From Deltaproteobacteria bacterium (lineage in GTDB: Bacteria; Myxococcota_A; Polyangia; HGW-17; SLPX01), in NCBI GenBank assembly GCA_021162935.1, contig JAGGXR010000146.1, positions 1 through 34,883 on the forward strand: a stretch of 34,883 nucleotides of DNA, written 5' to 3'. Shown here piece by piece: positions 11,677 to 33,891 of the stretch. Every line of letters starts with the position of its first letter. The stretch's first letter is position 1. The translations under genes and the position numbers were made by a program. Under the pieces are notes generated by a model. It made no database searches. It saw nothing but the letters and a program-made list of their open reading frames with translations, and was not told the origin of the DNA.

Positions 11677-11680
11677 TCTG

Positions 11681-11782
11681 CACCTGGCAGTCTTTCGTAC
11701 TTGGCTGTCTTTCGTACTTGGCTGTCTTTCGCACCTGGCAGTCTTTCGCATCTGGCTGTCTTTCGTACCTGGCAGTCTTTCG
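11681..11782. repeat. Six 17-bp tandem repeats (minisatellite)
   Basis: Six contiguous units (11681-11697 through 11766-11782) follow the pattern YAYYTGGCWGTCTTTCG; only the first few bases and one A/T position vary. The array starts 5 bp after the stop codon of the preceding gene, so it lies in its 3' untranslated region. Units 2 and 3 are identical, as are units 1 and 4, which suggests recent slippage plus alternating variants. Confidence 0.97.
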
Positions 11783-18934: not shown

Positions 18935-19149
18935 GGCTGTCACCTGCTGTCGGTTCGTTTCCGTCGTTTCGTTTTGCAATGGCGGCCCTAGGGAGGCTGG
19001 TCAGAATTAATCTTCCATCTGGAACGCCGATTCATCCCGCCTGGTTTTGTCGCTCCTCGGTTGCGTACCACCCGGTACGCGCCCTCGTCGCTTCGTGCCA
19101 GACGGGTGCCTCGACGCCCCAAATTGGCAACCCTATTTTGAACAGCTTC

Positions 19150-19632
19150 CTAATAGATATGGGTCCCCTTGGTGAGTTTGCCCTTCTGGCACGAGTACTT
19201 GCCGTTTGGTGGCCGGAGGCAGATGTCGCCGAGCGGACCCTTTTGGGCAAAGAAGCGTCTTCGGTCCTCCTGTTGGAGGATCGAATGCCTGTAATATTTG
19301 AGCACGAAGCAGGAGCTGTAGTTGTTGACGAGGTGGATGAGTCGATACTTGGTCGTATCTTTCGGCACATACCATCCTTCTGGGCACTTCTTGAGAAAGT
19401 CGGAGGGCAATGGTTTGGGATGTTTCCACTCCGGCTCTGTGAGGTTGGACGGCATGCCTGCATGGCCTTGGGCTGTCTTTGCTGCCTTGGCCGTCGTTGT
19501 CTGTGACGTGGTTGTGTGATTCGCGTTTTTCTTCTTCGATGAGCAGCCGCCTGCTGTCAGGCCCACGGTGAATGCGACGATGGTAACGAGTTTCCATGGG
19601 GTTGTTGAACGAGTTTTTCTGGAATTGAGCAT
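19150..19632 (-). CDS. Small lipoprotein, four-Cys mature domain, unknown function
   Basis: ATG 19632 is preceded by GGAGG 7 nt upstream. The 160-residue protein has a signal peptide ending in lipobox TAGGC (Cys30), a Lys/Thr/Ala-rich linker and a compact domain with four cysteines (KKCPEGWY, YSSCFVL, DICLRPP, YSCQKG) that could form two disulfides. No family recognised. The TTG/ATG start region of the large phosphoesterase gene lies about 170 bp downstream on the same strand. Confidence 0.75.
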   Translation of the reverse strand: MLNSRKTRSTTPWKLVTIVAFTVGLTAGGCSSKKKNANHTTTSQTTTAKAAKTAQGHAGMPSNLTEPEWKHPKPLPSDFLKKCPEGWYVPKDTTKYRLIHLVNNYSSCFVLKYYRHSILQQEDRRRFFAQKGPLGDICLRPPNGKYSCQKGKLTKGTHIY

Positions 19633-19740
19633 GATGACGCCTCCGTATCCGGAAATGGCTTTCGTCTCATATCGAAAAAAGCTTCATTTTGCAGCCTAAC
19701 GAAGTATCTGGGCCCTTGTCATGGAAAAAATGCAGTCAGA

Positions 19741-19840
19741 CAATCGACACGAATGCAGCGAAAGCGCGACGTCAGAGCGCCGAATCCTCCATGCAATCAG
19801 GGCGAGGGTACGAGGTCAGCGCTGCGGGTACGACCGTGGC
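19741..19840. repeat. 100-bp direct repeat, copy 1 (downstream of polyferredoxin gene)
   Basis: Matches 21628-21727 at 98 of 100 positions in the same orientation. This copy carries the reverse complement of the last codons of the SLC13-type transporter gene but is not part of any intact gene. Immediately after the repeat, 8 more bases (19841-19848) match an internal stretch of the transporter gene (22067-22074), so this copy may be a recombinant of two transporter segments. Confidence 0.97.
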
Positions 19841-19933
19841 TTCGAGCATTTCTCTTGACACAGAGTCGGTCAATCTCAAGTCGTACTTCGACGAGGGGTT
19901 CGATGTGGAAATAGAAGTCCAACCCAAGACATG

Positions 19934-19975
19934 CCTCAGGGACGATGTGACCTTCCTCAGGGACGATGTGACCTT
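19934..19975. repeat. Two identical 21-bp tandem units
   Basis: The unit beginning cctcagggacgatgtg occupies 19934-19954 and 19955-19975 without a mismatch. In the plus-strand frame it encodes a duplicated LRDDVTF heptapeptide within the possible remnant ending at 20009. Confidence 0.95.
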
Positions 19976-20049
19976 CGTGGTCGACTCTACCGTCAGTCTG
20001 TATGTCTAGCTCCCCCCTCGGCCGTCTCGCTCCCAACTCGAACGGCCCG

Positions 20050-21447
20050 TCACGCCGTCAGCCCCCACGAGACCAAGATCACCCCGAAGAGAAGAAGCCC
20101 GAGGAGCCATCCTCCCCTGGCAGGCGCCCTGTCCTGCTCTGGCAGTCTCCCGATCCAGCGCCAGGCCCACCACCCCACCGCAAGGAAGAAGGGCAGGACG
20201 AGCCGTCCCAACACACCCAAGCCGTAGAGGGGCCCCGGTGCCGACGTCGCCCCGACCGTGATGTCACGAAACGTCGTCAGTCCCGACGGATCCACCAAAG
20301 CGCCGGGCAGATACGCCGCCCAACCGCCTATCTTGGAAAGCGCCTTTGCCAAGTGGGCCATCGCTACGAGGGGAGCCGCCCCCGTGGCTGCAGCCCGAAT
20401 CGTCCTCCCCCAGGGTCCGCCCCCCCGGACCAACCGAACCGACACGACAACCGCCGTCCAGACGAACAATGGAAAGACGAACAGGTACCAGGCTCCCTCC
20501 ACCCAATGCCACGGGACGGAAGCCGGTGCAAGTCGGTGCGGCAGGGCCGTGAAGGCCCGATCCATCCAGGCGATGTGCTCTGTCGTCTCGTGGACCAGAA
20601 AACCTGCCGCCATCAAGATGAACCCCGCTTCGAACGGCTCCAACAAGCTCTTGCGGCGGATGGGAGCATCGGGCAAAACAAGCCCGAAGCCCACGTTGTC
20701 GTGGGGACATGCCTTGGCGCATTGGAGGCACACGAGACATCCGTCAGACGGCCCCCGATCGAACGGCTTTAGCAGAGAGGGACAGCTCCTGGCATCGAGA
20801 CGATACCTGTTCTTCTCTCGAATGCAGTCCTTGGTTTCACATCGTGCGCAGACGTCGTCGTCCCGGACTTCGAGCTGGACCGCCGTTTGCCGCCCGTAGG
20901 CAGAGAGCAGCGCCCCGACCGGGCAGAAAGCCCGGCAGAAGGATCGGGGATGCTTAAAGAAAAGACCCGATAGGAAGGCCGCCCCGATGAGGCTGACGAT
21001 CACCACCGCCGAATAGTGTGGCATCCTATGGAGGTCTACGACCACGACCAGGATTTGAAGGGTCACGTAGCCCGCGAGCATGATCCAACCCGCCCGCAGG
21101 AAGGGCCCGAGCGCCGCCCGTCGCCATCCCACTTTGCGGGCTAGGGCATCGGCGAACCTATTGACCAACTCTAAAGGACAGACGGCGCACCAGACCCGCC
21201 CCACAAGAACCACGGCCACGATCATGGCCGGCCACCACAGGCCCCAGACGAGCAGGGTCGCCAAGTTCGTCTTCCGGAAGAGGAGAAGTTCGCTGGCGTC
21301 CATCCCCACTCCACGTCCCCACCCGATTGCAGCCACCGCCAGCACGATCCCCAACACGAGGACCTGCACGCCCAGAGGAAAGAACTTCTTCTTGACGAGC
21401 CAGGCGACCGGTCGATACCGGAGCAGGTCCAAACGAAGCCGTTTCAT
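20050..21447 (-). CDS. Membrane polyferredoxin (NapH/NosR/CcoG-like 4Fe-4S protein)
   Basis: The preferred start is ATG 21447 (GAGG 8 nt upstream, ATGA overlap with an upstream frame); a GTG at 21456 is the alternative. The 465-residue product has several membrane segments. Cysteine clusters are VWCAVCPLELVNR and FCRAFCPVGALLS (paired CxxCP-type motifs of NapH/NosR-like proteins), VCARCETKDC, and CLVCLQCAKACPHDN (4Fe-4S ferredoxin-like). Homologues pass electrons across or along the inner membrane, for example to nitrate or N2O reductases or in copper-centre assembly. No such partner is in this window. The C-terminal half, with four or five extra membrane helices, is longer than in NapH. The gene is bracketed by a 100-bp direct repeat, which suggests recombination-mediated acquisition. 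Confidence 0.88.
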   Translation of the reverse strand: MKRLRLDLLRYRPVAWLVKKKFFPLGVQVLVLGIVLAVAAIGWGRGVGMDASELLLFRKTNLATLLVWGLWWPAMIVAVVLVGRVWCAVCPLELVNRFADALARKVGWRRAALGPFLRAGWIMLAGYVTLQILVVVVDLHRMPHYSAVVIVSLIGAAFLSGLFFKHPRSFCRAFCPVGALLSAYGRQTAVQLEVRDDDVCARCETKDCIREKNRYRLDARSCPSLLKPFDRGPSDGCLVCLQCAKACPHDNVGFGLVLPDAPIRRKSLLEPFEAGFILMAAGFLVHETTEHIAWMDRAFTALPHRLAPASVPWHWVEGAWYLFVFPLFVWTAVVVSVRLVRGGGPWGRTIRAAATGAAPLVAMAHLAKALSKIGGWAAYLPGALVDPSGLTTFRDITVGATSAPGPLYGLGVLGRLVLPFFLAVGWWAWRWIGRLPEQDRAPARGGWLLGLLLFGVILVSWGLTA

Positions 21448-21683
21448 GCCTTGCACCTCGAATCCGTCCCCAGGCCATCGTCCCTTTGCCCTTTCCTTTC
21501 AGCCCGTAGTGAATCACAGCCGACCGAAACGTACAACCCGAAGCCCCGGCGGCATGCCGTGGCGGGACGGCTGCCCGAGTGGCATAGCGCGCAGGTCTGC
21601 TTGGCGTTGGATGATGAGGGGGGGAAGCAATCGACACGAATGCAGCGAAAGCGCGACGTCAGAGCGCCGAATCCTCCATGCAG
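21444..21683 (-). pseudogene. Possible remnant of a CxxCH (haem c) protein overlapping the polyferredoxin start
   Basis: An open stretch of 79 codons follows a stop at 21684-21686 and ends at a TGA whose ATGA overlaps the polyferredoxin ATG. It reads ...NAKQTCALCHSGSRPATACRRGFGLY..., containing one CxxCH haem-c motif and a spacing seen in small c-type cytochromes. No ATG, GTG or TTG lies in frame before the motif, and the first part overlaps the 100-bp repeat, so at best this is the decapitated 3' end of a cytochrome gene. Chance is a real alternative. Confidence 0.25.
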
Positions 21684-21727
21684 TCAGGGCGAGGTTACGA
21701 GGTCAGCGCTGCGGGTACGACCGTGGC
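21628..21727. repeat. 100-bp direct repeat, copy 2 (spans 3' end of transporter gene)
   Basis: Same orientation as copy 1 at 19741-19840, with two mismatches. Bases 21695-21727 are the last 11 codons of the SLC13-type gene (AATVVPAALTS and stop, minus strand). The remaining 67 bp lie downstream of that gene. The copies are 1887 bp apart, start to start, and enclose the polyferredoxin gene. Confidence 0.97.
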
Positions 21728-23044
21728 AGCCCAAAGGGTGATGAGGAGGGCGGCGACCAGATTCATGGCCAGGCCTGCGGTGACCATGGTTCGGATGCGG
21801 ATGTGAGGGATGGATCCGAAGGCGAGGGCGTTGACCGGTGTGGCCAGCGGGCTCATGAAGGCGCAGGTGCTCGCCATGGACACGGCGATGGCCGTGGGGA
21901 CGGGATCGAGATGGGTGGTCGAGGCCAGGGCCGGCACGATGGGAAACAGGACCGTGGCGACGGTCGTGTTGTTCAGAATTTCGGTGGCGAACAGGGCCAG
22001 GGTGGTCAGCCCGAACAGGACGAGGTTGGGGGATGTGTTCGCAGGAAGCAGGTCTGCGACCGTGGCTTCGAGCAGCCGAGAACCTCCCAATTTGGCCACG
22101 GCGAACAGGATGGCGATGGCGAATCCGGCCAGCAACACGCCTCGCATGGGAAGGCCTCGCCACAGGTCGGTCGCGTGGATGAGGGTCTGCCGGTGGGTCG
22201 GCGTTGTCGGGGGGTGGTTGGGATCGGTCCGGAAGGGAATGCATAGAAAGACGATGGCCGTGGCGGCAGCCAGGATCACGGCGGCCAGGTCGGCGGCTTG
22301 GACGACGACGATGGATGCGCCGAGCGATTTCGGCAGGACGAGTCTGGCGAGAGGCTGCGGAAACCAGGCGGCAAGGAGGCCGATGGCGACGAAGTGGGTG
22401 GCCGCCAAGGCGCCGACGAGCAGGAGGCCGAGATGGCGGCGGTGCCTCGTGGCTTCGCTGGACGTGTCAGTGGGTGACGGCGGCCCTTCTCGGGAATGGA
22501 GGCGATGGCCGGCTGCAAGGGAATCGACCGACATGTTCGCCAGGGCCTGTCGGGTGGACGCCGGGGTCCAGGTCCACAGGATGCCCCAGGCGGCCAGGAC
22601 GAGGAGGGCCGCAAGCGGGATGCCGAAGATCAGCCAGGGAACGAACTGAACCGCCTGGCGCCCCGGGACGTCGAGGACCCCCAGGGAAACGAGCAGGTAG
22701 AGGTTTGCCGGTGAGCCGAGCAGGGAGCCTGTGCCTCCGATGTTGGCACCGTATAGCACGGCCAGCCCCAGGATGGTGGCGAGGCCTGCGTCGGTCCTTT
22801 GGTCGCCCTCGTTGTGCAAGAGCAGCGCCACGAGGGGAAGCAGGGTCAGCACGGTCAACGCATTGGGTAGCACCAGGGAAAGGGCCGACGATCCACCGAG
22901 GATCGCAAGGAGCAACAGGGCCGGCCGCCCTCGTGATCTCCGCACCAGGATTTCGAGCAGTTCGCGGTACAGGCCCAGGTGGACGAGGGCCTGGGAGGCG
23001 ACGTAGCCGGACAAGAGGATGGCGAGGGTCTGAATGAGCGTCAT
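21695..23044 (-). CDS. SLC13/DASS-type anion (dicarboxylate) transporter
   Basis: Starts at ATG 23044, 31 bp after the kinase stop codon; the product is 449 residues with about eleven hydrophobic segments. Two pseudo-symmetric substrate/sodium loops are visible: GANIGGTGSLLGSPANLYLL, corresponding to the SNT region plus the GTPPN-like motif, and EILNNTTVATVLFPI in the second half. A long hydrophilic loop lies between the halves. Members of this family usually import dicarboxylates, citrate or sulfate with sodium. Proximity to the dCache-bearing kinase suggests co-expression and possibly regulation by it (inference). The last 11 codons lie inside a repeat also found 1.9 kb away. Confidence 0.87.
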   Translation of the reverse strand: MTLIQTLAILLSGYVASQALVHLGLYRELLEILVRRSRGRPALLLLAILGGSSALSLVLPNALTVLTLLPLVALLLHNEGDQRTDAGLATILGLAVLYGANIGGTGSLLGSPANLYLLVSLGVLDVPGRQAVQFVPWLIFGIPLAALLVLAAWGILWTWTPASTRQALANMSVDSLAAGHRLHSREGPPSPTDTSSEATRHRRHLGLLLVGALAATHFVAIGLLAAWFPQPLARLVLPKSLGASIVVVQAADLAAVILAAATAIVFLCIPFRTDPNHPPTTPTHRQTLIHATDLWRGLPMRGVLLAGFAIAILFAVAKLGGSRLLEATVADLLPANTSPNLVLFGLTTLALFATEILNNTTVATVLFPIVPALASTTHLDPVPTAIAVSMASTCAFMSPLATPVNALAFGSIPHIRIRTMVTAGLAMNLVAALLITLWAATVVPAALTS

Positions 23045-23075
23045 GGCCGGCGGGTTGCCTCGTAGGTGGTTCGAG

Positions 23076-26000
23076 TCATCGGGCCTGATAGGAAGACTGG
23101 GCGGCACGGTTCCACACGGCCTGTGCGGATTCCGGGCTGAGCACCACGAGGGTCCAGTCCGGATGTCCAAGTGGCGCATAGGCTGCAAGGACAGGGCCGG
23201 TTTGCGTGTGGAGGACCTGAGCCTCGTTGTGCGGAATTCGGTGCGCGAGGGCGTCGGCGCCGTACCTGGCCAATGTCGGCTCCAGGTCGTAGACGTGCTT
23301 CATGGCGAAGGCCTTCTTCCAATGGGTCGATCCGGTCCAGTAGGTCGTGTCCACGAGGATGCTGCCGTCTCGAAGCAGGAGCAGCGCTCTGGTGATCGTT
23401 CGGGACGTTTGAGTCGTCCGGGCAGCACTGAGTGCCTTGGTGTTTTCAGTCGTCCGGGCAGCACTGAGCGCCTTGGTGTTTTCAGTCGTCCGGGTAGCAC
23501 TGAGCGCCTTGGTTTTTTCAGTCGTCCGGGCAGCCTGGTGCGTCCCGGTCGATTGGGCCTGTTGCGTTGGTCCCAGTTCATCGTCCTCGACGAGATGTTC
23601 TTGGATGGATTTCATGGTCAATTCGATCCCAACGACTCCGGCGATTCGTCCCGATCGTACGAAGTGCTGGACGCAGGTCACGAGCACACCGTGGCCCGCC
23701 GCGTCGATGTGGGGTCTGCTCCAGATCGGGTGTCCGGACCGGATTCCAGCACGGTACCAGGGCCTCTTGGTCGGGTCGTAGTCGGGATGGCGACCGTATC
23801 GACGAAACCCGGGAAAGGAGAGCAGCGCACCGGTCTTCGTGCCGAACACGGTCCAGACGATGTCCTTCCTGCTTGCATGCACCGAGGCGAAGAGGTTGGA
23901 CAGTCGGCTCAGTCGCCAGATATCATCGAGGGCTGCCTTGCGCAGGCGCCTGCGTCGTTGTGCCCATGGGGCCAGTTTGACCGTGCCGTGGGACAGAGAG
24001 ACGGCGCGGCCGTACCGTGGGTCCGCCACCATGTTATCTGGTCGCGTCCTGGACGAGGCATAGTCCTGGTCGAGATAGTACCCTTTGCGTTTCGCCCTGG
24101 TCCTGGGTCGGTACGGCACCTGATTGGCGGGCATGGAAAGGATGTGGCCGGCGATCTGAGCGTATTGGCTGTCGAGTTGTTCGATGCCTCGAAGGTATTG
24201 AGACAGGACCTTGGCCCTGGTCGCCACGGTTTTGGCGAAACTGGTCCGGCGCAGTCGGTCCGACAGAAGCAGAGCCTGGTGGATGGCTTTGACCCGCTGT
24301 CGACTCATGACGAGGTTGTTGCGGACGAGTCTGTTCTGTCGGCTCACCAGTCGGGCCTGGCGCAGGAGCAGGTACGAAATGATGGCGAGCCCGGCCAGGA
24401 TGGCGATGGTCATACTCGTGGCCAGCAGTCGGAGCCAGCGCATTCTGGCCCGCTGTGATTTTGTTCGGGCGACCTCTCGATCGAGCCGCTCCTGCATGGA
24501 TGCCATTCGATGGCGGTCCACGGTGTTCGTCTTGACGGAACTGGACGCGAGAGACTGTTTGAGTTCTTCCAAGGCGTGCCTGGCCAGGGTGAGGTCACCC
24601 TGTCGCACAGCGATGGTGAAGTGAAGCTGCAGACTCTGGATGAGTCCGCGGCGTGCCCGGAGGTTGTCGGTCCAAAGGGCCAGGGCCTGTCGAAAGGCGC
24701 CCGCACTCTGTCCTGCCAACGCATAGGCTTTGGCTGCCTCGCAATCATCCATGGGACGTGCGGCGACCGTCAGGAGCGCACGTTCGAAATCGTCCTTGCG
24801 TGTGCGAACGTGTTCCTTGCTCGCCACTGCTGGCCCGTCATGGACCGTGTCGGACTCGTGGGCATTGCCATCGCGACGGCTCGTCACATCAGCGCCGTGG
24901 TCGTGTCGCGCATCGGTGTCGTCATGCTTTCGATGCGTCTGGGTTGGTTCGCATGCCTCTGTCCAGCTTTGGGCGGACCTGTCGTGGTTCGTGGTCAGTG
25001 CGACGAGTTCATCGAGTTGCTGCGATGCGTTGTTTGTGATCCGCAGCGACTCGGAATGGGTGCGGTAGTCTGACAGGGCCTGTTGGAATTCGGGCACTGT
25101 TTGGTACCGATCGCGCATGTCGGTTGCCAGGGCCTTCATGCAGACGGCGGCAAGCTCCATGTCCACCTGTCGGTCGGGAAAGCTCCAGGGCGCCTTGACC
25201 TTGCCCGAAGCCGCATCGCGTACCGCATTCACAATGTTTCCGTTGGAGGAGTGGGGCGCCTCGCCCACCAGGAGGCGATAGAGGATGCCGCCCAGCAGGT
25301 AGACGTCCGTCGCCGGTCCAATCCTGTCCATGTGTCCCCGAGCCATTTCGGGCGCCATGTAGGCCGGTGTGCCGGCCAGCTTGACCTCTCGTTTCGGGTC
25401 CAGCACATAGGGGTTCTGTTTGCCGAAGGCAATGGCGAGGCCCCAGTCGGCGAGTAGCACCTCGCCGAATTCTCCCAGCATGACGTTTGCCGGCTTGATG
25501 TCCCGATGGAGAACCGACTTGGCGTGCGCATAGGCCACCGCGTTGCAGACCTTGTCCAGGATGGCCAGGTGATCTTCGAGGGTCATGGACGCGGCCTTGT
25601 CTTCCAATTCCTTGCGTTGCTTCGAGTCCTCTTCCTTCGTCGGGTCCAGCAGGTCCTGCCAACTCGTGCCAGGAACCATCTTCATGGTGTAAAATGGCTG
25701 CCCCGAGGCATCCACTGCGAGATTGTATACGGGAACCACGTTCGGATGGTCGAGCCGTCCGGTCATCTGCGCCTCGCTGATGAACCGCGCGACCCGCTGA
25801 CGTCCCTTGCGGTCGCCGGGCCTGGGGCGACGCATGAGTTTGAGGGCAACGTTGCGGCCCAGAGCCTGTTGGCGGGCCAGACACACGACCCCCATACCTC
25901 CCTGGCCCAGTACGGACACCACTTCATAATGCGCGCCTACGACAGGGGCTCCGGCTTCGATTCGACCTTCTGCCGTCACCTGTACGGCCCGACCATCCAG

Positions 26001-28366: not shown

Positions 28367-28401
28367 GATCCGCAAGAAATAGGGCCAACTACATTTCCGC
28401 A
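28367..28401 (-). repeat. 35-bp transposase-derived repeat, copy 1
   Basis: Matches 30253-30287 at 32 of 35 positions, same orientation. On the minus strand it encodes LRKCSWPYFLRI, against MRKCGWHYFLRI in the truncated transposase at 30247-30846. It is therefore a fragment of a related transposase gene. Confidence 0.9.
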
Positions 28402-28450
28402 AGCGCCTTCCTGTCATCCGGACCCATGTGGGCCGTGAGTGCTTCGCCTT

Positions 28451-28581
28451 TTCTTGGGAGCAAGCCCCACATCCCACCTTACACATTGGTCCAAGAATTG
28501 GGCTCCACTTCACCTTTCTTCTTGGGAGCAAGCCCCACATCCCACTTTACACCCTGGTCCAAAAAGTTGGGGTCCACTTCA
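28451..28581. repeat. Two ~62-bp direct repeat units, 68-bp period
   Basis: Units at 28451-28512 and 28519-28581 begin with an identical 27 bp (ttcttgggagcaagccccac...) and end in tccacttca, with about ten mismatches and a 1-bp indel between. They lie in the leader region of the WD40 gene. Confidence 0.93.
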
Positions 28582-28614
28582 AGGTGGTCCCACCGAAGTC
28601 TCCATGCTATGTTT

Positions 28615-28654
28615 GGATTTTCACTTGCCAAACTGGATTTTCACTTGCCAAACT
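28615..28654. repeat. Two identical 20-bp tandem units before a ribosome binding site
   Basis: The unit ggattttcacttgccaaact occupies 28615-28634 and 28635-28654. The AAGGAG ribosome binding site of the WD40 gene begins 2 bp later, so the duplication lies in the immediate 5' leader or core promoter. Confidence 0.96.
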
Positions 28655-28669
28655 AAAGGAGTCTCCTTG

Positions 28670-30235
28670 ATGTTCGAACATTCAGTGCGCAGTCGGGCCC
28701 TGACATCAGAGCCCGACCGACAATCCCCCGCAACCGTTGCCCTGCGCCTGCTCGGGGCTATCAGTGCGGTTACCCTGGTGGGCACGGGTTCTGCGTTTGC
28801 CTGGATCCTGCTCGGCAAGGCCATGGCCTGGGCGGCGGTGGCCCTTTTCGGCCCCCTGGTCGCCCTCGAGGTCGTAGGCCTGCCCTTTGTGCGGCGCAAA
28901 GTCCGCGACAGTCTCTTTCTGCGATCCTTGACAGACGGTCTCTTCAAAGTGGCCGTCTACACGCTGGCCATGCAGGCCACTTTCTTCATGACTCTGATGA
29001 TGATAACGGTCTCCATGATCATGGGCCGTGGGAGCAGTGCCACCACCCCGTCCGCCTATGCGTACGAGTTCATGACCACGGCCTCGCTCGTGTTCGTCTT
29101 CCTGTTCGCTTTCGGAGGGTTGGGCACCGTGGGAGTGAACTTGGCCAACTACGATGAACCACAATGGCGGTTCGCCCACCGACTCTTTGGTTGGATCGTC
29201 ATCCTCATGGCCGTGGCGGTTTTGTTTCCAGGGTTGCTCTACCTGCCAAGATGGCTCGAAGCCTTGGGCACGAAAATCGGTCCCGCCCGGGCCGGACTCG
29301 TCGTGCTGGGTGCCATGGGCCTGACGTCCATATTAATGACCCACGGTTTCCTGATCTGGGTGACTCCCGGTATTTCCTCTCTCCATTTCCACGGACCCAC
29401 GGGCCTTGCCGCAGTGACCAAGAAGGGAGAAACGTCGGTCTGGAATCTGAAGGGCAATCAGGTCTTCAAACAACCCTTTGGCCGCTCGGTGGCGCTTTTC
29501 GACCAGGATGGGACGCTGCTGGCGGCAGCCGACGGCAACGGTGCCGTCTGGGTATGGCAAATCCCCGACGGCACGGTGGCAAACAAGATCGAAGGGCTCA
29601 AAAACGACCTGCAATCCCTTGCCTTCAGCCCGGACGCCCACAGGCTGGCCACCTTGGACGAAGACGGGTTCCTCCAGGTCTGGGCCCTTCCCGATGGCCA
29701 TCTGGAATGGGAAACCGACTGCGCCAAGACGGCCAACGATCCCAGGTGGCTGGCTTTCGATCCAAGCGGGGCGGCGCTCATGGTGGGCACCGGACAAGCC
29801 AAACTGCTGCGCTACGAAAGTTCGGGAGGCCGATTGCTGGGCAGCCCCACCGATTTCGCTCGGGATTTCGATGCAGACCGATTCGCCCAAGTGCGCCTTT
29901 CACCGTCCGGCCGCAGCCTCGTCTTGTTGGAAAACAGTGAGGCTTCGGTCTTTCGAATCGACGGGGGGATCCTGACCCGAGGAGCACAAGGAGGGGCGGA
30001 CGCTGCCATCCTCGTGCTGTCTACCTGTGACGACCGAGCCGAGGCTCTCGCCGTGGGTTATGAAAACAACATCCACGTCCACCTCCAATCCAAGCCGTCC
30101 TTCAAGCTCGATGTCGGCTCTGAAAAAATCCAAGCGCTATCCATGGATGGAGCGGGCCGTCGTCTGGCCACTGCCAGCAAAAAGCACATTTCGATATGGG
30201 ACTTGGAAACGAAGCAGCAGACCCGACTGGCGTGA
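28670..30235 (+). CDS. Membrane protein with C-terminal WD40 beta-propeller
   Basis: AAGGAG at 28656-28661 sets the start at ATG 28670; the product is 521 residues. The N-terminal ~235 residues contain about six membrane segments. The remainder is a WD40-type propeller with recognisable blades: AVWVWQIPDG, LAFSPDAHRLATLDEDGFLQVWALPDG and GAGRRLATASKKHISIWDLETK; others are diverged. I do not recognise the membrane domain. WD40 propellers scaffold protein complexes; the inference is a membrane-tethered scaffold, side uncertain. The gene is flanked by matching transposase-derived direct repeats. Confidence 0.83.
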   Translation: MFEHSVRSRALTSEPDRQSPATVALRLLGAISAVTLVGTGSAFAWILLGKAMAWAAVALFGPLVALEVVGLPFVRRKVRDSLFLRSLTDGLFKVAVYTLAMQATFFMTLMMITVSMIMGRGSSATTPSAYAYEFMTTASLVFVFLFAFGGLGTVGVNLANYDEPQWRFAHRLFGWIVILMAVAVLFPGLLYLPRWLEALGTKIGPARAGLVVLGAMGLTSILMTHGFLIWVTPGISSLHFHGPTGLAAVTKKGETSVWNLKGNQVFKQPFGRSVALFDQDGTLLAAADGNGAVWVWQIPDGTVANKIEGLKNDLQSLAFSPDAHRLATLDEDGFLQVWALPDGHLEWETDCAKTANDPRWLAFDPSGAALMVGTGQAKLLRYESSGGRLLGSPTDFARDFDADRFAQVRLSPSGRSLVLLENSEASVFRIDGGILTRGAQGGADAAILVLSTCDDRAEALAVGYENNIHVHLQSKPSFKLDVGSEKIQALSMDGAGRRLATASKKHISIWDLETKQQTRLA

Positions 30236-30246
30236 ACAATCCTCAG

Positions 30247-30846
30247 GCCCTTGATCCGCAAGAAATAGTGCCAACCACATTTGCGCATCTGCATCGCCGT
30301 GTGAGCTGACGTGTTTCCCGCATCGGTGGTCACCAAGCTGAACAGTCTGGTGTGGGCATACGCCCTGTGCAACATATCGAGCAGGTCGGGCAGTGCCCCA
30401 ATTTCATTGGTACTGCCCTCGAGGGGTCTGGTCAGCACCGGCCCGGTCGCCTTCGACGAAACCAGGGCCACATTGTGTTGGTGAATCACGGCGGAGACTT
30501 CCCCTTCCTCCGGCCTGTGGAGTTGGACCCATGGGGAGTCGTCCTTGAGCTTCTTTGCGATTTCGTCGACTGCGTTCGGGCTGTTTTCGACCTTGCACAG
30601 TCTGAGCAGGTCCTTGAAGTGCAGCGTGGCCACATTTTTGCCGTCGATGGCTATCGTCCCAATCCCCAAGTCGTCTGGCTTGAGATTGCCCCGCCGATGG
30701 TCGGTCTTGATGAGTTGCACGAAAGCTCGGCCCACTGAATCCACAGACAGGCCCGCAACTGCGCTGAGCATCGTGTTGTCCGCGATGCGGCTCGGAATCG
30801 ACAGCGCCTTCCTGATCCCGCCACTGAGCAATCCTAACGCCGTCAT
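30247..30846 (-). pseudogene. Truncated DDE transposase (IS4/ISAs1-like)
   Basis: The frame opens at 30846 (MTALGLLSGGIRKAL...) and carries IAIDGKNVATLHF (first catalytic Asp region) and LVTTDAGNTSAHTAMQMRKCGWHYFLRIKG (second Asp region). Homology stops at KG, where intact relatives continue with NQP and the third acidic residue; the frame then runs antisense into the WD40 gene. The enzyme is therefore inactive. No clear terminal inverted repeats are visible. The family assignment is approximate. Confidence 0.8.
30253..30287 (-). repeat. 35-bp transposase-derived repeat, copy 2
   Basis: Counterpart of 28367-28401 (32 of 35 identical, same orientation), inside the truncated transposase. The two copies enclose the WD40 gene. 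Both lose homology to each other right after the shared gatc edge. Confidence 0.9.
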
Positions 30847-30934: not shown

Positions 30935-31046
30935 TCGTGCATCGCGATCCTCGTGCATTGCGATCCTCGTGCATCGCGATCCTCGTGCATTGCGATCCTC
31001 GTGCATTGCGATCCTCGTGCGTTGCGATCCTGGTGCGTTGCGATCA
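30935..31046. repeat. Seven 16-bp tandem repeats directly upstream of a lipoprotein gene
   Basis: Units run from 30935-30950 to 31031-31046 with the pattern tcgtgcRtYgcgatcc; the last unit has two changes. The array ends 2 bp before the AGGAGG ribosome binding site of the CAP-domain lipoprotein gene. The 16-bp period means that gain or loss of a unit rotates upstream elements by about one and a half helical turns. Confidence 0.97.
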
Positions 31047-31060
31047 TAGGAGGCGGGTTG

Positions 31061-32212
31061 ATGATGAAGACGTTGAAGGCTGGGACGAGACGAGGAACGA
31101 CGACGGCAGCGGCGGCGGGCCAGGCGATGTTTGCGGTGGTGGCCATGGTGGCAATGATCGGTTGGTCCATGGGGCTTGCGGCCTGCAACGATGGGCGCGC
31201 TCATCCATCGGGCGACGGTTCGGTGGGAAAGGACGTGGCGCTCAACGGTGATGCCACGACGAATGGTGACGGCTCGTCGTATCGAGACGGAACGCCGCAT
31301 CAGGACGGTCAAGTGCACGACGACGCGGCGCCGTCGCCCGACGGGGCAGCCCCGGGAACGGATCCCTGCAGCGGGAATGTGTTCACACCCACCACGGCGA
31401 GTACGGGTCAGGGCCAGGCGCCAGGCGATGCCTCATCGGTCCAGATCGAGGCGATGCATTACACCAACTCTTTCCGGAACCTCTGTGGACTCAACCCGAT
31501 CAACTTCAACTCAGCCCTCGATTCGGCGAGCCAGGCCCATTCGGACTACTGCTCCACGGATTCGAGTTGGTGTCCTGGGTGGCACCAGGAACAAGAGGGC
31601 CACCCTGGCTTTACGGGCGTAAACTTCTGGGAGCGGGATCAGTACGCCGGGTATTCGGGCCAGCCTGCGTCCGAGGTGATGGCCCCGGGGGGCACGCCCC
31701 AGTACGCCATCGACATGTGGATGGAGTCGGTCTATCACCGTTCGCCGTTTGTCAACCCGAAGATCCACGAGGCCGGGTTCGGGTCCGGGTCGAGCTACAC
31801 GACCATGGACTTTGGCTGCTGCGGCTCCTTCGACGCGAACCTTGTGACGAACTATCCGGTGCATGGACAAACCGGGGTGCCCACCGACTGGCTCGGAAAC
31901 GAGGGCCCACAGCCGCCCACCCCGCCCACCGGCTGGCCGTCCGGTCCGGTCATCAGCATCATCTTTCCGCCCGATGCAAACGTGAGTATCACGGCGCATC
32001 AGATTTATGATGATGCCTGCCAGACCATCGATCACGTGGCGGGCGGCCAGGGTATCCAGCCAGATCCTGGTTTCCAGGGTTCCTTTTTGGGCTCCATAGT
32101 GGCCATGTATCCCAACAACCCGCTCGCCTCGCACAAGACGTACACGGTCAACGTGGAGTACACGATGGGCGGCCAGCCCGGCCACCGGACCTTCAGCTTC
32201 ACCACCAAGTAG
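31061..32212 (+). CDS. CAP-domain (SCP/PR1-like) lipoprotein
   Basis: AGGAGG at 31049-31054 sets the start at ATG 31061 (a second ATG follows at once); the product is 383 residues. A signal peptide ends in lipobox GLAAC (Cys42), followed by a 70-residue Asp/Gly/His-rich linker. The CAP domain spans about residues 120-270: EAMHYTNSFRNLCGLNPINF, LDSASQAHSDYC, ASEVMAPGG, SVYHRSPFVNP and GFGSGSSYTTMDFG. A C-terminal Ig-like beta domain (VISIIFPPDANVSIT...HKTYTVNVEYTMGG) resembles the Ca-binding or Big-type extension found in similar proteins. CAP proteins are extracellular; bacterial roles are mostly unknown. It sits between tandem repeats on both sides. Confidence 0.9.
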   Translation: MMKTLKAGTRRGTTTAAAAGQAMFAVVAMVAMIGWSMGLAACNDGRAHPSGDGSVGKDVALNGDATTNGDGSSYRDGTPHQDGQVHDDAAPSPDGAAPGTDPCSGNVFTPTTASTGQGQAPGDASSVQIEAMHYTNSFRNLCGLNPINFNSALDSASQAHSDYCSTDSSWCPGWHQEQEGHPGFTGVNFWERDQYAGYSGQPASEVMAPGGTPQYAIDMWMESVYHRSPFVNPKIHEAGFGSGSSYTTMDFGCCGSFDANLVTNYPVHGQTGVPTDWLGNEGPQPPTPPTGWPSGPVISIIFPPDANVSITAHQIYDDACQTIDHVAGGQGIQPDPGFQGSFLGSIVAMYPNNPLASHKTYTVNVEYTMGGQPGHRTFSFTTK

Positions 32213-32248
32213 CGTTCACCACCAAGGAGCGTTCACCACCAAGGAGCG
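32198..32248. repeat. Three 17-bp tandem units spanning a stop codon
   Basis: Unit ttcaccaccaagKagcg at 32198-32214, 32215-32231 and 32232-32248. The first includes the last codons and TAG stop of the CAP lipoprotein gene; in the other two the T of the stop triplet is G. The repeat therefore grew from the coding end into the 3' flank. Confidence 0.95.
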
Positions 32249-32256
32249 GGCCCCCG

Positions 32257-32331
32257 GCCTCGCCGGTTTCTGCCTTGCCGGTTTCTGCCTCGCCGGTTTC
32301 TGCCTTGCCGATTTCTGCCTCGCCGGTTCCT
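32257..32331. repeat. Five 15-bp tandem repeats
   Basis: Units gccTYgccgRttYct run from 32257-32271 to 32317-32331, with alternating C/T at the fifth base. They follow the 17-bp array after 8 bp. No frame of either strand here looks like a gene. Confidence 0.94.
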
Positions 32332-32397
32332 GTCTCGTTCACCTGTCCTCTCCTTCTGGGTGGAGCGTCGTTTCGTGCTCCGTCATGGAGTCATCGG

Positions 32398-33573: not shown

Positions 33574-33891
33574 CTCGACCTCGTGGTGCGCGACAGGTCG
33601 TTCGCGGACCGTTGCCAATGCACGGCCCCAAGAGTACGTTCGGCTCCACGGTGAGACAAGGTTTTTTGGTAACCGTTCAGGGCGGGTACTGGCACGCGCG
33701 GGGCATGGGCACTGAGTGCGTCCAGTACGTGACGGAGGGAGCGTAGGTTGGCCTGTCTGCGGTCAAAGGATCTTCACATCTGTGGAGCGAGGATCTGAAT
33801 GACAAGATTTCTCGTCGAAGGAAAGAATTTCTCGTCGAACGAAAGAACTCGAGCGCGTCATCGAGAAGCTGCAAGCAGCCGTTGAAACCCT
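33574..33891. other. Intergenic region with a 20-bp duplication and a coiled-coil fragment
   Basis: A 20-bp tandem (tttctcgtcgaaSgaaagaa) lies at 33808-33847 with one mismatch. From 33845 the plus strand reads ELERVIEKLQAAVETLQAENAALEQ, a leucine-zipper-like segment like the N-terminus of IS66-type transposases, but it has no proper start and its frame runs into antisense of the transposase remnant. No intact gene is seen. Confidence 0.5.

Follow-up and report, generated by a model that had tools for sequence, protein, structure and literature searches.

A direct repeat around a polyferredoxin gene in an uncultured myxobacterial genome is probably a repair scar and not a pair of mobile-element ends

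We regard the 100-bp direct repeat that brackets a polyferredoxin gene in the DNA analysed here as a probable mutation scar of an ordinary kind, as opposed to the two ends of a mobile element. We consider it likely that one of its copies (copy 1) is templated filler DNA, which arose by microhomology-primed template switching at the scar of a lipoprotein gene; the other (copy 2) belongs to the 3' end of an SLC13 transporter gene. The whole stretch of DNA, referred to as the window, comprises 34,883 nt (contig JAGGXR010000146.1 of GCA_021162935.1) and is contig C15 of G000, a short-read MAG of 5.13 Mb in 168 contigs, within which stretches totalling about 783 kb served as the survey sample.

Copy 1 (19741-19840, minus strand) and copy 2 (21628-21727, minus strand) are 100 nt long, lie in direct orientation with a start-to-start spacing of 1887, and agree at 98 of 100 positions, the two mismatches being at 19796/21683 (A/G) and 19808/21695 (G/T). 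The exact block between the copies reaches 55 bp, which is far above chance. The initial annotation, which had described two 98%-identical copies in the same orientation on either side of one gene, is borne out here, the gene in between being the polyferredoxin ORF. It was also right that one copy supplies the last 11 codons of the SLC13 gene and that the other is orphaned: copy 2 encodes these terminal codons, stop included, and continues for 67 bp downstream, and copy 1 is not part of any transporter gene.

The ORF at 21695-23188 (minus strand) is assigned to the SLC13/DASS-type anion transporters (PF03600) by Pfam and by homologue alignment. Homologues in related genomes align through the C-terminus, including the residues encoded by copy 2, and this alignment identifies copy 2 as the native 3' end of the gene. 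The nearest relative belongs to another genus, and its SLC13 protein is 37% identical over 464 aa. The homologues begin at residue 49 of the ORF, which places the true start probably at 23044. The mismatch at 21695 falls on the last base of the SLC13 stop codon, which reads TAA in copy 2 and TAC in copy 1, fitting the expectation for an unconstrained copy.

The initial annotation had proposed searching the genome for further copies of the repeat; the 5.13 Mb of G000 hold these two only, the next match having an E-value of 0.45. A 38-bp exact core of the repeat had no match in the viral contigs searched, and neither a tRNA nor an Rfam family was found at the repeat. We rejected an RNA or terminator within the repeat, since it folds no better than shuffled sequences (z +1.0 to +1.7) and lacks an Rfam match. 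An insertion sequence with a target duplication was likewise rejected, as the window contains no inverted repeats of at least 30 nt and no transposase.

At its right edge, copy 1 has no clean end and runs on for 8 more bases. The resulting mosaic CGACCGTGGCTTCGAGCA (19831-19848, minus strand) is an 18-bp exact match to the SLC13 interior at 22057-22074 (minus strand), consisting of 10 bp in common with the end of the repeat and 8 bp past it. The 10-bp word CGACCGTGGC occurs twice in the SLC13 region, at 21718 and 22057, and the 339 bp between the two occurrences are skipped. In junction tests that were post hoc, being chosen after the sequence had been seen, a junction-spanning match of at least 18 bp arose in 3 of 30,000 simulated flanks (P=1e-4; whole window, both strands, copy 2 masked), and the observed match falls in the repeat-donor gene itself and on the same strand.

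The left junction carries the patch ATGCAGTCAG (19730-19739, plus strand), which is identical to the copy 2 interior at 21678-21687. The same post hoc tests put its chance level at P about 6e-4 when both strands of copy 2 are compared and at 0.017 for 21457-23188, and the left patch on its own is weak. It shows G, the copy 2 base, at the mismatch site that reads A in copy 1, suggesting that copy 2 is the likely donor. In local alignments, neither flank showed additional homology to SLC13 or to the intergenic DNA (P 0.08-0.85).

Homology to a lipoprotein gene of the Polyangia begins at the right edge of copy 1 and extends to near a stop codon at 20009, indicating a 3' remnant of about 54 codons plus stop (19842-20009, plus strand). 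The lipoprotein-like family is present whole in the relatives G003, G002, and G014, and a profile built from these members, with the remnant excluded, recovers the remnant as its sole significant match in a six-frame search of the 783 kb of G000 (E 2.7e-4), the E-value being 0.0036 in the whole-genome search, a modest homology. The match scores 20.6 bits, compared with a maximum of 10.7 bits for shuffled fragments. Because the homology starts at the copy 1 edge, and opens there at model position 144 of 196, copy 1 appears to sit where the first three quarters of the gene were lost. The whole-genome search found neither a 5' part nor an intact copy of the lipoprotein gene elsewhere in the MAG. 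The 18-bp mosaic, the 10-bp left patch, and the truncated gene at the edge of copy 1 are all additions to the initial annotation.

The remnant also contains a perfect 21-bp tandem duplication (19934-19976). Proteins of the lipoprotein-like family (L140, L141, and L142) are about 170-210 aa long, and Pfam gave no match for the member tested. Directly left of the filler, CATGGAAAAA at 19719-19729 could be the lipoprotein start region (ATG GAA AAA), in which case the start and the end of the gene alone would survive.

We propose that a replication fork broke or stalled at this site and that repair may have proceeded by microhomology-primed template switching. The lipoprotein gene would have lost its 5' three quarters, and about 119 bp templated by the SLC13 3' region close by would have closed the gap, as three patches that all have one orientation. 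The first would be the left patch, templated within the repeat; the second would be the 100-bp repeat itself; and the third would be 8 bp of the SLC13 interior, reached via the 10-bp word that occurs twice in SLC13. The lipoprotein remnant follows the patches, and the source, copy 2, would have been left intact as the SLC13 3' end. We infer a single event in this direction, with the polyferredoxin gene already in place beforehand; the patches could alternatively stem from successive events. Viewed as a templated insertion, the filler has a nearby intact template, namely the native 3' end of SLC13, which lies 1.9 kb away and which it matches at 98 of 100 positions, and more than one patch at a microhomology, the 10-bp bridge having a P of 1e-4 and the left patch being weaker. 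The filler adjoins the truncated lipoprotein gene, the relatives compared belonging to other genera.

In E. coli, deletions and amplifications that do not depend on RecA are known, with microhomologies at their junctions and a complex structure, and template switching there, likewise RecA-independent, is primed by 3' ends at microhomologies and yields complex junctions (PMC2621351). At 10 bp, the microhomology falls inside the interval of 2-15 bp given for that species, the host here being uncultured. As in microhomology-mediated break-induced replication or fork stalling and template switching during E. coli Lac amplification (PMC2621351), short copied segments are joined at microhomologies, with several apparent switches around a single site, accompanied by loss of sequence. 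However, the Lac system involves kilobase amplicons in an assay, whereas we describe a 119-bp filler from 1.9 kb away, observed in a MAG as a scar. Short-range template switching in primates gives templated insertions of up to 128 bp (PMC7954356), and its clusters are comparable to our case in having a nearby template and a similar insert size. The primate templates are in reverse orientation and within 100 nt, whereas the template proposed here is in the same orientation, 1.9 kb away, and bacterial.

The interval between the copies carries only the lipoprotein remnant and the polyferredoxin gene (20050-21456, minus strand), which encodes a NapH/MauN-like membrane polyferredoxin. The protein is 46-52% identical to its relatives, with the cluster cysteines conserved. 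The gene is patchy in the Polyangia and also occurs in several other phyla, and it has no constant neighbour among the loci examined. In none of the relatives examined does it adjoin SLC13; in G002 the two genes are on separate contigs, and in the sole genome of the same family, which is 65% complete, the polyferredoxin was not detected. Its GC skew is opposite to that of its neighbours, but its codon usage, which ranks 29th among 161 genes, and its GC3 of 0.77 are within range, and a foreign origin by composition was therefore rejected. The initial annotation had noted the lack of an integrase, which agrees with the Pfam search, as none of the 26 window ORFs scanned matches a recombinase or transposase family. 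Its suggestion of a passively mobilised cassette is not supported by an interval with this composition and no recombinase. As the codon usage is not atypical, no recombinase was found nearby, and no relative has the SLC13 adjacency, the polyferredoxin gene is probably a bystander.

The main rival to template switching, which we regard as unlikely, is that a piece of about 1.8 kb (about 19849-21627), comprising the polyferredoxin gene together with the 3' end of the lipoprotein gene, was captured at a staggered break after SLC13. Fill-in of the long overhangs would double the 100 bp, and one end would gain 8 templated bases before joining. Such a capture explains why an interval is bracketed and why a gene is cut short at the edge of that interval, and it accounts for the 8-bp extension as a product of end processing. 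The patchy distribution of the polyferredoxin and its separation from SLC13 in all relatives examined are also in its favour. However, it requires overhangs of about 100 nt, it does not account for the left patch, and the insert is not foreign in composition. The left patch is also unaccounted for if a longer and older duplication of the SLC13 3' end was shortened to 108 bp by deletions that included one between the 10-bp words. A 339-bp gap flanked by direct 10-bp repeats is a classical deletion substrate, but the flanks lack the further homology that such a duplication would have contributed, and an identity of 98% allows little time for trimming on both sides, making this origin rather improbable.

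The initial annotation had compared the copies to attL and attR of an element that targets a protein-coding 3' end, or alternatively to a duplication with later insertion. The duplication part holds, in that the SLC13 3' end is duplicated and copy 2 is native. The resemblance to an integrative element or a passively mobilised cassette with the SLC13 3' end as its target consists of direct repeats around one gene, one of which completes a coding 3' end. In contrast to such elements, no integrase was found at the locus, and the genome holds no third site, no second integration site, and no other insert. A search of 50,697 phage records gave no match to the polyferredoxin, its plasmid matches are all weak and partial, and nothing links it to a mobile element. 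The outer junctions are mosaic, with SLC13 and copy 2 patches, and a beheaded gene lies at the boundary at copy 1. Neither the junction patches nor the truncated gene is explained by clean attL/attR recombination, leaving the att part of the annotation unsupported and, in our judgment, very improbable. We give even less credence to an assembly artefact at the repeat. The MAG is a short-read assembly in many contigs and the copies have a 55-bp exact block in common, but the two differing sites and four unique flanks mean that two copies must exist in the sample, and ordinary reads span 100 bp, which confines any possible error to the linkage across the repeat. We see just as little likelihood in a lineage-specific, recombinase-free copying of gene 3' ends that brackets single genes as mobile one-gene cassettes, a reading that draws on a second, weaker 35-bp direct repeat with a near-equal spacing around another gene of the window.

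Template switching, as the favoured origin of copy 1, implies that a direct repeat resembling attL/attR can be a repair scar. Such a scar can be recognised by junction patches copied from the donor, by the donor's base at a position where the copies differ, and by a gene at the edge that has lost its front part. Filler of this sort, about 100 bp long and still resolvable into several patches with unusual clarity, in the genome of an uncultured myxobacterium from nature would make a useful example without constituting a novel type of system.

The approximately 783 kb of G000 surveyed contain few direct repeats that are local (<5 kb), not in tandem, at least 35 bp long, and at least 90% identical. 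The closest parallel to the main repeat is a 72-bp pair on contig C46 (97%, 361 bp apart), and a 42-bp pair lies inside a repetitive protein gene. Contig C90 carries a 296-bp direct repeat (95%; L117-L120) at 65480-65775 and 68641-68935, of which one copy is located directly before a transposase-like gene (68945-70054) and the other stands alone, 8 bp past a gene stop. The 35-bp direct repeat of the window (91%; 28367-28401 and 30253-30287) brackets a single WD40-type gene (28439-30235), and its upstream gene is an unrelated GT87. Its spacing of 1886, compared with 1887 for the main repeat, is probably a coincidence.

The window also includes a MITE-like element of about 160 bp (18992-19151), which has at least 41 genomic copies (among them L087-L116) with 75-97% identity. 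Its ends are near-perfect terminal inverted repeats (TTAGGAGGCTG...CAGCCTCCTTA), and it folds as a full-length hairpin (z -4.1 and -5.7). A 3-bp TNA target duplication is identical in 14 of 32 copies (0 of 2000 shuffles). TNA target duplications are typical of some IS5-family groups. Short tandem arrays with units of 15-68 bp lie in and between genes at 441-548, 11680-11782, 23408-23534, 28451-28581, 30935-31045, 32198-32337, and 33807-33847; the array at 23408-23534 has a 36-bp unit and is found inside a protein kinase gene, where it encodes NTKALSAxRTT repeats.
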